A stretch of DNA of 63,282 nucleotides from an uncultured Flavobacteriales bacterium (GTDB lineage: Bacteria > Bacteroidota > Bacteroidia > Flavobacteriales > Schleiferiaceae). Both the position numbers and the translations under genes were made by a program. The stretch lies in assembly GCA_950073045.1 (NCBI GenBank), contig CATMQD010000002.1, forward strand, positions 1 to 63,282, written 5' to 3'. The notes beneath the pieces were generated by a model. The model was not told the origin of the DNA, made no database searches, and saw nothing but the letters and a program-made list of their open reading frames with translations. How positions within the stretch are numbered: position 1 is the stretch's first letter; every line of letters begins with the position of its first letter. This document shows, piece after piece, positions 2,715 through 51,886 of the stretch.

Positions 2715-4775
2715 TTATTCCTTTACCACCTTCACTACAAAACCATCAGCCCAAATCCAGTATACCCCGGGTTCAAACGAAGTTAGATCGATAGATTCGC
2801 CATTGATGTCCATCAGGCTGCGACCTTGTGCATCGATGAGCTTGCCGGCCTTAATTGGACGACTAAAATAAAGCTCCTTCTTAGTGGGATTGGGATAAAC
2901 TTCAAATCCTTCAATTCCGGTTTCCCCTAAATTAAAATCACTTAGAAATACACAGTCGGAGGTATCGGTGCAATTACCTTGACTTATGATTACGGCAAAA
3001 TTCCCGGGATAGGGACTAGTAAGCATTTGATTAGTATCACCTACTAGTATCTGTTGATTATCACAATCGAACCATTGATATTGAGCATTATTGGCTAAGG
3101 CCATCGCTACATTTCCAGAGATAGTAAAAGAAATGGCGGTATTAACTGTATCAATTTGCAAATTGGTAATAAGTATCGAATCGCAGCCACTTGCTGATTG
3201 TAGCGTGTCAATGTATTGTCCGCTTTGATTAACGATAGTTCCGCCTGGTAATTGGTATTGAGAACAAGCCGTAATACTAAGGGTATCCATTATCTGTGGT
3301 AGTACTACTAAATCCAAGCTAATCAAAGAATCACAGCCATTGGCGGCACTAAGAGTAGTTTGATAAATACCACTACTATCTAGGTTTAGGCCATTAAAGT
3401 TTAGGCTTTCGCCGAAGCATAGGGTATCGCGAATTAGAGTTGAAATAACATTGCAAATACTGTCCATGAAATAAACCGATCCAGCTCCAGCTACATAATT
3501 TAGATTTAAAGAATCCTCATCATCATTTGGAGCTCCCACTATTAAAGCACCATTATGATAGGCCAAGTCGTAGCCAAAACTATCGAATGTGCTTAAAGGA
3601 ATAATTCGGTCCTGAGGAAGAATAATTTGTCGAAATTCAAAACTATCAACCGCTGTATTGTATTGAAACCAATAAACACCACCAGCAGAAGCCATTGCAT
3701 TCGCTTGATTGGCATCATGGTCTTCATTTGGGACTCCGATAAAAAGGTTGGGCCAATTTAAAACAAGAGCATCACCGAAATTATCATTATCTAAAGGCTG
3801 GGGCTGGTGAATTATCTGCTTAAGCTGATGACCGTTTTGATTTAAAGTTAAATGGAAAACTGCACCCGGAGCAGAAAGGGTATCATAACTATAGTCGCGA
3901 TTGGAGATAATTAAATTACTATCCTCCCAAGCAATGGCAGCACCAAGAGTGCCTCCACCCTGAAAGATAGTGTCGGTAATGTGAAGGTTTTGGTTCCAAT
4001 TTCCGAGACTGTTTTCTTTAAAGCGATAAATAGCACCATAGTAACCTAAAAGTTGACCGGCAGGGGTGAGCCATTCTTCAGGTGCAGACACAAGTATTTC
4101 ATCACCTTGCAAGGCCACATCCATTCCGAAATGGCCACTGCTGCTTACAGAGGCGCTCAGTTTTTCGGCGAATGCCCAATTACCATTCTGATATTTATAA
4201 ACATAAGCAGAGCCAGAATTTGTTAAACTATTTTGATTTAAGGAGTCGCTGGGATTTCTTTCAGCGCCAATTACAATAGTATTGCCATTAATAGCTACTG
4301 AACATCCAAACCTAGAGTTGTTTGCGGTGTCGTTCGAAATCAATCTTTGACTATGAACCCAGCGATCATTTTGTAAAGTAAAAACATGAGCAGCTCCATT
4401 GGCTGGAAAACCAACATATTCGCCACGAGCACCAATAACTAGCGTAGAATCCTGCACGGCCATAGACCAACCGAATTGGGCTAAATGATTACGATTACTG
4501 GACTGTAGCTTTTGATGAAAAGACCATGCGCCGAAGGAGTTTTTCTTATAAACCATTACAAACCCCGCATTGGAAATCGGATTTGCGTCGGCAGTGTCAT
4601 ACGGAGATTGTGGTGCACTCATAAATGCAAAACTGTCGGTTAAGGCTAAACTGTGACCTAAGCGAGCAAAAACTGTTCGGGTGCCAGGATCACTAAATTT
4701 TTGCTTGCCATTAAAGGACTGAGCAAGTAGGAGATTAACAGCAAGGCAGAGTAGTAGTGTACTTAAGTGACGCAA
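2715..4775 (-). CDS. T9SS-secreted protein with FG-GAP/integrin-alpha-like repeats
   Basis: Signal peptide, repeated GxSVAINGNTIVIGA..., C-terminal YPNPTKKELYF...GVYWI sorting domain. Confidence 0.85.
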   Translation of the reverse strand: MRHLSTLLLCLAVNLLLAQSFNGKQKFSDPGTRTVFARLGHSLALTDSFAFMSAPQSPYDTADANPISNAGFVMVYKKNSFGAWSFHQKLQSSNRNHLAQFGWSMAVQDSTLVIGARGEYVGFPANGAAHVFTLQNDRWVHSQRLISNDTANNSRFGCSVAINGNTIVIGAERNPSDSLNQNSLTNSGSAYVYKYQNGNWAFAEKLSASVSSSGHFGMDVALQGDEILVSAPEEWLTPAGQLLGYYGAIYRFKENSLGNWNQNLHITDTIFQGGGTLGAAIAWEDSNLIISNRDYSYDTLSAPGAVFHLTLNQNGHQLKQIIHQPQPLDNDNFGDALVLNWPNLFIGVPNEDHDANQANAMASAGGVYWFQYNTAVDSFEFRQIILPQDRIIPLSTFDSFGYDLAYHNGALIVGAPNDDEDSLNLNYVAGAGSVYFMDSICNVISTLIRDTLCFGESLNFNGLNLDSSGIYQTTLSAANGCDSLISLDLVVLPQIMDTLSITACSQYQLPGGTIVNQSGQYIDTLQSASGCDSILITNLQIDTVNTAISFTISGNVAMALANNAQYQWFDCDNQQILVGDTNQMLTSPYPGNFAVIISQGNCTDTSDCVFLSDFNLGETGIEGFEVYPNPTKKELYFSRPIKAGKLIDAQGRSLMDINGESIDLTSFEPGVYWIWADGFVVKVVKE

Positions 4776-4893: not shown

Positions 4894-7158
4894 TTACTTC
4901 TTAAGGATCTGTAAGTTTCCAGCCTCAGATACTAAGCTGTAAATACCTCTTGGTAGTTCGCTAAGGTTGGCTTCAAAACCATTTACCTCCATTACAAACT
5001 GTCCATTAAGGTTGTACAGTTTACCAGCTTTAACTTCTTGAGTAAAGCGAACCATGCCATTGCTTGGATTTGGATAAGCTTGTAAAGTGAAAGCACGCTC
5101 TTCTTCATCTAAACCGATGGTTCCACCGATGGCGTATAAAGATAAAGTTCCCGAAACCTCATTGGCGATAGCTAACATCATTTCACCATTAGGGCTCTTA
5201 TCTGCAGAAATAAACTTAATATCTTCTGGACCAAGATCACCGGCGTTGATATCATCAGCATCAACAGTGAAATCGCGGTAAAGGAAATAGCTGATGAAGC
5301 TTGGATTAGTAGGATCGGTGATATCATAAACCATAATTCCACCCATACGCTCTAATCCAATAAAGGCAATAGTAAATCCGTTAATCTCGGCGATTTCGAT
5401 CGCTTCGGGCTCAGATGCTTTATCATCAGAACGAGACTTTTGGGAGTCGTTATCGTCGTTATTCGAGTTAAACTCATTAGGGTAAAGACTAAATAGAGTT
5501 TGGGCAAACTGATCTTCACTATCCCAAACTAGGTTTAGGTTTTCATCCCAAATAGAGAAACCGCGACCACCGTAAGAGTAAATCTCATCATAGTCTCCAT
5601 CGCCATCAGTATCCCCTAAAGTAGTGGTGATGTTTAAGCGACCAAGGCTATCTTCCATTTGCAGGTTAGCCGCATTTGGGAAGGCCGTTGGGTCTAAATC
5701 TAAATCTTCTACGCGTTCTTCTTCACTCCAAGCATCGTAATCGCGTGCATCACCTTCATTAGCTGTGGCGATATATACATTTCCGTTCACTTCAAATGCT
5801 TTAATGGCATCAGGCTGATACATACCAAACACAGGCCAGTTGCGAATATCAACCGCCGATGAACGGTTAGAGGCATCCATTTTATTATTACCGGTAGAGT
5901 AATCTTTAAAACCTAAAGCGCCTAAAGCGCTAATGCTGTTGTTGCCAAGATCGATTACCGCCATGGCGTTGTTTTCCTGGCAAACCACAAAGGCTTTGCT
6001 GTTATCTGGGGCTACCGCGATGTATTCGGGCTCTAAGTTTTGCGATAAACGTGGTTGTGTGCCTTCGATGGTAATATTGTCGATTTGCCAACGAGCAGCA
6101 TTTCCTGCACCTGGAGATCCTTGGTAAAGAAAAGCCACACTTACACTTTGCTCTAAATAACTATCTAAGCTGTAACGACCAGAATTGGTGTCGGTATTAC
6201 TTCCTGGAGAAAGCACAAAGTTCATGGTAATAGTATCCCAGCTTGCAGTGCTTGGATCCATAGAGTTAGAAGGATCGTAATCGGTAGAGATTAATACGTC
6301 TAAAGAACCACCGCTAAAACCTCGAGTGCTTTCAAAGCTTAGGTAAGCGGAATCTAATCCAGTTAATAATTCTGGATAGGTGATTAACCAAGACTCCGAA
6401 GGACCACTAGCGCTAAAGGCATTGGCCTCGGCAAAGTGATCGCCACTGAAATCATCGTAATACCAAGCGGCATCACCGGCAGTATTAAACACAATTACAT
6501 TGTCTAGAGAGTCGGTAGTGTTTTCGAAATCCTCCATATAGTCGGCAACGGGACCGAAATTACGGATGTTGGGATCGTAGTTCGCATCAAACTGAGTGAA
6601 GTCGAGGGTAGTTACATCGCTTTGGCTAAGATTTGGAATGCCACCACTAATGTCGATAATCGATACGCTGCCCATAGGATCGGCGCTGTAATCATCATCT
6701 GGCTCTCCTTCATTAGCCGAAAGAACTTTCATACCATCATGGGTGAAAGTTACCATGTCGGGTAATACACCTACTTCCACATCAGCTACATAGGCTAGGG
6801 TAGAATCGAAGAATACAATATGACCGTTTTGATCAAAATCATTGGCCTCTACCGCCACCGCTAAATAGCCATTCATATAGGCTACCGAATTAGCGGCATC
6901 ACCATAGGTAGTAATGTCGATGGAATCGGTTTTTACGATATTGGTCGGATTTGAAATATCGAACACATCGATATGATCGCTAAATCCATTAACCGCATAA
7001 AGTACTTGGCCACTGGCATTGTAGGCCACGATTTCCATAGCACCTTCGTCGAATTGACCGCTTTTATAGCTAGCCAAATAACTAAGGTCTACTAAGTTTT
7101 GAGCTTGCATTAAGAAGCCGGAAAGTAGTAGGAAAAAGAGTGTAGTCGTTCTTTTCAT
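4894..7158 (-). CDS. choice-of-anchor I family beta-propeller protein, T9SS-sorted
   Basis: EYIAVAPDNSKAFVVCQENNAMAVIDL, QPDAIKAFEVNGNVYIATANEGDARD, C-terminal YPNPSNGMVRF..GIYSL. Confidence 0.87.
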   Translation of the reverse strand: MKRTTTLFFLLLSGFLMQAQNLVDLSYLASYKSGQFDEGAMEIVAYNASGQVLYAVNGFSDHIDVFDISNPTNIVKTDSIDITTYGDAANSVAYMNGYLAVAVEANDFDQNGHIVFFDSTLAYVADVEVGVLPDMVTFTHDGMKVLSANEGEPDDDYSADPMGSVSIIDISGGIPNLSQSDVTTLDFTQFDANYDPNIRNFGPVADYMEDFENTTDSLDNVIVFNTAGDAAWYYDDFSGDHFAEANAFSASGPSESWLITYPELLTGLDSAYLSFESTRGFSGGSLDVLISTDYDPSNSMDPSTASWDTITMNFVLSPGSNTDTNSGRYSLDSYLEQSVSVAFLYQGSPGAGNAARWQIDNITIEGTQPRLSQNLEPEYIAVAPDNSKAFVVCQENNAMAVIDLGNNSISALGALGFKDYSTGNNKMDASNRSSAVDIRNWPVFGMYQPDAIKAFEVNGNVYIATANEGDARDYDAWSEEERVEDLDLDPTAFPNAANLQMEDSLGRLNITTTLGDTDGDGDYDEIYSYGGRGFSIWDENLNLVWDSEDQFAQTLFSLYPNEFNSNNDDNDSQKSRSDDKASEPEAIEIAEINGFTIAFIGLERMGGIMVYDITDPTNPSFISYFLYRDFTVDADDINAGDLGPEDIKFISADKSPNGEMMLAIANEVSGTLSLYAIGGTIGLDEEERAFTLQAYPNPSNGMVRFTQEVKAGKLYNLNGQFVMEVNGFEANLSELPRGIYSLVSEAGNLQILKK

Positions 7159-51119: not shown

Positions 51120-51647
51120 GTGAAAATAGTTCTGATGAAAAACAACGATACAGAATCACTGATTCCCGAAGAGCGGGTGGCCCAATGCATTATCATCCTT
51201 AGAGGGGAGAAGGTTATTTTAGACTTTCACTTAGCCGCCTTTTATCAAGTAGATAATAAGAACCTTAAACAGGCTGTACGTCGAAATTTAGAAAGGTTCC
51301 CTGAAGATTTTATGTTTAGGCTTAGTAACCAATAGATTAGCCTCCTGGTATCACAAAATGTGATACCCTCAAAAAGCCATTTGGGGGGATCTAAACCTTT
51401 TGCCTTTACCGAGTCGGGGGTAGCAATGCTGGCCAGTATTTTAAAAAGCCCCATGGCAATTTCAACCAGTATTGGCATTATAAGAACCTTCACCCAATTA
51501 CGGAAGATGAGCCTTAACTATGAGGAGCTTAAAGCCCGTATTGATAGTATTGAGAACGATTTCGGTAGAAAGTTTCGAATTTTATTTCAAGCCTTGGAAG
51601 GCATGAAGGAGCCTGAAGCTGAACGTAAAAGGATCGGATTTAAATAG
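51120..51647 (+). pseudogene. ORF6N (KilA-N-like) domain protein interrupted by one in-frame TAG at 51333..51335
   Basis: Same frame on both sides: LRGEKVILDFHLAAFYQVDNKNLKQAVRRNLERFPEDFMFRLSNQ * ISLLVSQNVIPSKSHLGGSKPFAFTESGVAMLASILKSPMAI. Confidence 0.82.
51347..51367. repeat. palindrome copy 1 (inside ORF6N coding sequence)
   Basis: GGTATCACA-AAA-TGTGATACC. Confidence 0.95.
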
Positions 51648-51685
51648 CACTTAAAAAGTAAATTGCTGTTTATTAAGGTTTTAAC

Positions 51686-51716
51686 TTAGGGGTATCACAA
51701 TTTGTGATACCCCTAA
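51686..51716. repeat. palindrome copy 2, 15-bp arms
   Basis: TTAGGGGTATCACAA-T-TTGTGATACCCCTAA. Confidence 0.97.
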
Positions 51717-51851
51717 AGCATTCAAGAGGTCTATTCAGGTGAGTTCCCATCTTAAAGGGAGTTTTTAGGTAGCAGATGATGTAATAATAGGCTATTAATA
51801 AGCCAATTTGCAATTGCTAAAAACCTTAATTACTTGTTAATAAGGGTTTTA

Positions 51852-51886
51852 TTTAAGGGGTATCACAAATTGTGATACCCCTTAAA
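51852..51886. repeat. palindrome copy 3, 17-bp arms
   Basis: TTTAAGGGGTATCACAA-A-TTGTGATACCCCTTAAA. Confidence 0.97.

Follow-up and report, generated by a model that had tools for sequence, protein, structure and literature searches.

ORF6N-domain genes carry a conserved palindrome that co-varies with their recognition helix and is probably an intragenic operator

Comparative analysis of ORF6N-domain genes revealed that nearly all ORF6N domains have a palindrome over one set of codons, those for R-S-Q-x-V-T, with arm letters that differ from gene to gene. Sequence statistics establish that this palindrome is conserved family-wide, that it is constrained at the DNA level and that it follows a helix-to-site code, in which one residue of the recognition helix predicts the letters of the site. 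The palindrome probably serves the ORF6N protein as an intragenic operator, with autorepression as its most likely use. From the same sequence comparisons we infer direct binding, a dimeric protein, autorepression and cross-regulation among ORF6N proteins.

The ORF6N gene of the window and its three palindromes

The window (the whole stretch of 63,282 nucleotides analysed) contains an ORF6N-domain gene on the forward strand at 51135-51647, its frame running from an ATG at 51135 to a stop at 51645-51647. The first-pass annotation had placed a palindrome within an ORF6N reading frame. The domain was confirmed by a Pfam PF10543 match of the read-through translation (100.5 bits, E=6.4e-29; the curated cut-off is 27.8 bits), but the frame is not intact, as the sequence has an in-frame TAG on the forward strand at 51333-51335, four codons 5' of the internal palindrome, which is either a nonsense change or a sequencing error. 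The TAG weakens the case for a working copy in the window, not the identity of the gene as ORF6N; unless it is a sequencing error, this copy is probably a pseudogene. A helix-turn-helix (LAAFYQVDNKNLKQAVRRN) is predicted at 51231-51287 (forward strand) from the sequence and from an AlphaFold model of the homolog L013. The forward-strand codon at 51270-51272 specifies Gln46, the recognition-helix residue that, by the family code, predicts an operator of class CA (TCACAA).

All three palindromes described in the first-pass annotation are present, and none is expected by chance (100 dinucleotide shuffles). The internal palindrome at 51347-51367, GGTATCACAAAATGTGATACC, consists of GGTATCACA-AAA-TGTGATACC, encodes VSQNVIP and is kept in homologs; it is the proposed intragenic operator. 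The two downstream palindromes, TTAGGGGTATCACAATTTGTGATACCCCTAA at 51686-51716 with 15-bp arms and TTTAAGGGGTATCACAAATTGTGATACCCCTTAAA at 51852-51886 with 17-bp arms, each have a 1-nt centre, and their flanks look alike by eye. None of the three is assigned to a strand. All three are of class CA, as the code predicts from Gln46, so they were probably sites of the window ORF6N protein before its frame broke. Since the gene is now broken, the sites are probably relics, or are used by a related protein from another element. Flanking palindromes may be copies, or may be left over from ORF6N genes that have decayed. No promoter palindrome was seen upstream of the window ORF6N gene. A GTG within the internal palindrome starts a 95-amino-acid frame (51360-51647) that spans the second half of the broken gene, and a restart of translation at this GTG is possible.

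A search of all 348 contigs of the genome (3.47 Mb), as the first-pass annotation had proposed, found this palindrome three times, always at the window locus, where the sole ORF6N domain of the genome also lies. The pattern GTATCACA-N(1-6)-TGTGATAC was found in four of 398 genomes of the order Flavobacteriales: the source genome, a genome of the same genus (L006, within an ORF6N gene) and two others that lack an ORF6N gene there.

Conservation of the palindrome beyond codon need

Scanning of species genomes with the read-through window protein yielded 67 related loci from many phyla, and addition of Bacteroidota genomes, viral contigs and plasmids enlarged the domain set to 248 distinct full ORF6N domains. 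ORF6N was present in 117 of 396 Bacteroidota genomes. The 248 domains were compared with synonymous shuffles, in which each peptide was kept and the synonymous codons were redrawn. Matched arm pairs averaged 10.27 of 11, against 4.99 (standard deviation of the mean 0.09) after shuffling, and 114 domains carried a perfect palindrome where 0.055 were expected. At least nine of the 11 pairs matched in 239 of the 248 domains, compared with 226 of 2,000 windows taken elsewhere in the same loci, a conservative control since those windows still hold promoter and orphan sites beyond 400-600 bp. Alignment of related ORF6N genes, a further check that had been proposed, found the internal palindrome conserved at the same place beyond codon need in more than 90% of genes. 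These comparisons argue that the palindromicity of the coding site is itself under selection. Neither palindromes scattered over the genome independently of ORF6N nor homologs with the downstream sites and without the internal one were found. The internal site, whose position many phyla share, can be explained without the other origin offered by the first-pass annotation, a mobile palindromic element that entered the gene.

The two arms change together between ORF6N genes, amino acids included, and the symmetry is kept in the peptide variants RSQIVT, RSQIAT, RFQIGT, RFQFET, RCQIGT and RSKIST; 26 scored genes use another frame of the palindrome (VTNCD, VANCD and others). The conserved peptide motif RSQ.VT can therefore owe its existence to the DNA that encodes it. 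At arm position 4 (n=213) the pairs are AT in 106, GC in 59, CG in 37 and TA in four genes, with zero G-T and zero A-C. Counted along the whole arms, mismatches of the G-U type (27) do not outnumber those of the A-C type (42), which indicates a constraint on double-stranded DNA and not on RNA; the wobble-tolerant pairing of a structured RNA element is absent.

One residue of the recognition helix predicts the site

Of all protein columns in the family alignment, the one most informative about site class is column 20, which lies in the recognition helix (mutual information 1.66 of 1.80 bits). Outside the motif, column 17 follows with 1.38 bits, and the remaining columns reach at most 0.48 bits. 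Arm positions 5-4 are predicted by this single helix residue as CA for glutamine (110 of 114 genes), CG for glutamic acid (60 of 61), GC for arginine (23 of 35), TC for lysine (19 of 19) and TT for leucine (four of five), and the 12 exceptional arginine genes each keep one cognate half-site. Both half-sites fit the code in 216 of 234 genes, where the best of 2,000 shuffles gave 99, and at least one half-site fits in 231 of the 234. All seven genes fetched after the code had been noted (L288-L294, from plasmids and one phage) fit as well; in L293, for which the automatic scan had picked another palindrome, the motif reads TCACAATCTGTGA, as predicted.

The most telling test of the code is the choice among synonymous serine codons in the motif, which tracks the helix residue 27 codons away: TCA with glutamine in 98 of 99 genes, TCG with glutamic acid in 49 of 50 and AGC with arginine in four of four. 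Where the palindrome is translated in a different frame, the genes still obey the same code for glutamine and glutamic acid in 21 of 22 cases. Textbook contacts pair glutamine with adenine, glutamic acid with cytosine, and arginine or lysine with guanine, and the ORF6N residue-base pairings agree with them. It is thus very probable that the ORF6N protein itself reads its palindrome, and, as far as sequence can tell, the specificity of the site agrees with that of the protein encoded around it, as is required of an operator. The first-pass proposal of an operator for the ORF6N protein is strongly supported by this prediction from the helix residue, by conservation beyond codon need and by the genome-wide tie to ORF6N genes.

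The AlphaFold model of L013, a monomer with a mean pLDDT of 80.8, has the helix-turn-helix at residues 19-39 (helices 19-25 and 30-39) followed by long C-terminal helices, and the part encoded by the palindrome forms a loop region at about residues 60-76. Structure comparison found no significant solved relative (Ski/Dachshund-type folds came top, with E=0.04), and a sequence search found none either.

Repeated change of site class

On a tree of 238 rows, built without the helix and motif columns and approximate in its FastTree topology from 91 columns, the site class changes at least 63 times. Independent pairs of glutamic acid and glutamine genes on supported branches agree with the code in 7.4 of eight cases and disagree in none. 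Two genes that look like the same locus (L114 and L139) are 93% identical elsewhere and differ in helix and palindrome together. Likewise, tandem ORF6N genes on a Parabacteroides plasmid are 91% identical elsewhere, one being Gln/CA and the other Arg/GC. A Parabacteroides plasmid record (L285, 3849-5582) holds three tandem ORF6N genes beside leuS, one of class CA and two of class GC. Template switching is reported to homogenise inverted-repeat arms in coding DNA and to yield multi-residue changes (PMC8604942), and template switching between the arms is a plausible route by which both could change jointly.

Palindromes at promoters and association with ORF6N genomes

Additional palindromes peak 250-300 bp upstream of the internal one. 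Operator-like sites lie at -200 to +20 of the inferred start in 32 of 211 genes (15%), a strong enrichment over the roughly 0.007 expected per gene. Among the promoter sites, 21 of 41 are of the same class as their own gene (13.3 expected); since they are often of another class, many resemble targets of different ORF6N proteins. From a simple autoregulator one would expect more frequent promoter sites and closer agreement in class. Near these sites the standard Bacteroidota -7 motif turned up rarely and was not convincing. Across Bacteroidota, GGTCRCAANTTGYGACC occurs in 43 of 117 genomes with ORF6N and in three of 279 others (Fisher p=2e-22).

Proposed mechanism and alternative explanations

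According to the proposed mechanism, ORF6N, which has a helix-turn-helix in its N-terminal part and long helices in its C-terminal part, would bind as a dimer whose recognition helices each read one half-site. Within that helix, the L-[NK]-X residue would contact arm positions 4-5, glutamine pairing with A, glutamic acid with C, arginine or lysine with G, and leucine with T. Bound ORF6N would stop RNA polymerase inside its own gene and so repress that gene, and, where a promoter palindrome lies about 250-300 bp upstream, repression could proceed by joint binding of, or looping between, both sites. Promoter palindromes of another class would serve as sites for other ORF6N proteins. Autorepression as the main outcome is likely, though less certain than the reading of the site by the protein.

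The same biochemistry is compatible with mutual silencing of mobile copies of the same class, and the palindrome may then chiefly tag each gene copy, allowing the ORF6N protein already in the cell to recognise and silence copies of its class that arrive on phages or plasmids, as in an immunity or incompatibility group, with self-regulation not the main role. ORF6N genes are indeed found on phage contigs, on plasmids and adjoining integrases, all 19 of 19 aligned ORF6N members match both the PADLOC defence candidate PDC-S05 and a PHROG anti-repressor family, and a site inside the gene cannot be lost on transfer. Same-genome paralog pairs of one class are also fewer than expected (15 observed, 20.6 expected, P=0.04), a weak divergence that is suggestive only, and the same 7-bp half-site was seen in 0 of 60 same-genome paralog comparisons, which is not significant. 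However, a site bound by its own product would repress the resident copy as well, so that silencing leaves autoregulation in place, and silencing as the main role is considered unlikely. A broader arrangement, which we put forward tentatively, is a self-addressing gene family, in which each gene might hold an address read by its product and a one-residue code might set its class. Mobile copies that share a class would silence each other, arrays of mixed classes at promoters would wire paralogs into a network, and the palindrome could change class through a single template-switching event, along with the helix residue.

Explanations without a DNA-binding role fare worse than an operator. A perfect inverted repeat in coding sequence, with paired changes, could be an RNA hairpin in the ORF6N mRNA that acts on stability or translation control or as a frameshift signal. 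This is highly improbable and was rejected by the mismatch spectrum, in which G-U does not exceed A-C and position 4 has neither; moreover, complementarity reaches the 1-nt centre, copies also lie outside genes and the letters are predicted by a helix-turn-helix residue. The perfect arms may instead result incidentally from the repair of quasi-palindromes by template switching, with selection for binding playing little part, given that such homogenisation is documented in coding DNA (PMC8604942) and that the arms exceed a plausible contact zone, reaching 25 bp in L035. This account leaves unexplained why the site keeps one position across phyla, matches the helix residue and is enriched at promoters, and template switching as sole cause, contradicted by the helix code, is very unlikely. 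Co-evolution of helix and motif residues through contact inside the protein, with the DNA pattern secondary, would agree with the mutual information that motif columns 47 and 50 also carry with site class, but it is these columns that encode the site. Synonymous serine codons, moreover, are predicted by the helix residue, and genes in another frame fit the code; protein-internal co-evolution was rejected on these two grounds and is scarcely credible.

Comparison with known systems

Intragenic operators are known singly, as in lac O2 within lacZ, gal OI within galE and the coding-region operator of purR, where a repressor site in the coding region, often accompanied by one at the promoter, a few hundred bp distant, acts by roadblock or looping. 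The ORF6N site resembles them in lying within a coding region. They are single-gene cases, whereas the ORF6N site is family-wide, lies in the domain signature and co-varies with the recognition helix. Palindromes linked to genes or inside genes are also known from REP-associated tyrosine transposases with their REPs and from Rickettsia palindromic elements. Unlike these, ORF6N has no transposase domain and its palindrome has one fixed intragenic position and few copies per genome, at ORF6N loci. REP/RAYT systems combine many dispersed copies with a tyrosine transposase; the source genome has three copies and the protein is ORF6N. A dispersed REP-like repeat was accordingly rejected, all three copies being at the window locus. 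Mitochondrial genes of Nematomorpha contain perfect inverted repeats of up to 284 bp in conserved coding sequence (PMC6649704), and the ORF6N palindrome is similarly inside conserved protein-coding sequence. The Nematomorpha palindromes are long and the abstract of that report names no binding protein (PMC6649704), in contrast to the ORF6N site, which is short, fixed and proposed to be read by its own product.

PF10543, the anti-repressor PHROGs (phrog_4792 and others) and PADLOC PDC-S05 represent the same protein family as the window gene. In the literature searched, no description of an ORF6N DNA target, self-binding site or recognition code was found, nor any report of palindromes in ORF6N genes (subscription papers and preprints lay outside the coverage). 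A family-wide intragenic operator in a domain signature, co-evolving with the recognition helix, was likewise not found there. The widespread ORF6N family (PDC-S05), whose function is largely unknown, thereby acquires a predicted DNA target, with a recognition code that can be tested. With protein and site in one short gene, it also offers hundreds of natural pairs for studying how repressor and operator specificity change jointly.

Orphan palindromes, arrays and small plasmids

No ORF6N domain was detectable near eight of the 63 palindrome places listed, and several orphan palindromes fall in short ORF6N-like remnants. Five orphans (L219, L220, L225, L226 and L227) lie in ORF6N-like coding remnants, for example RSQFVTSSWGG and SELVTNCDRFATLK, from which the rest of the domain is absent. 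In L079 (G293), two GGTATCACA..TGTGATACC palindromes at 4613-4633 and 6466-6486 have no ORF6N gene nearby, and each precedes a gene that, judged from its sequence by eye, is AbiEi-type antitoxin-like, one of them with a Fic-like domain fusion.

Four palindromes of four classes, spaced at exactly 34 bp, occur at 3090-3216 of L232 (the same locus as L170), between a truncated gene for the first half of ORF6N and an intact ORF6N gene. Upstream of the ORF6N gene of L035, a 51-bp perfect palindrome at 2832-2882, with 25-bp arms and a 1-nt centre, is one of three palindromes at that place. Two plasmids of Segatella copri, L281 (2,955 bp) and L282 (4,140 bp), have only a replication protein and ORF6N as annotated genes, and the palindromes of both ORF6N genes fit the code.
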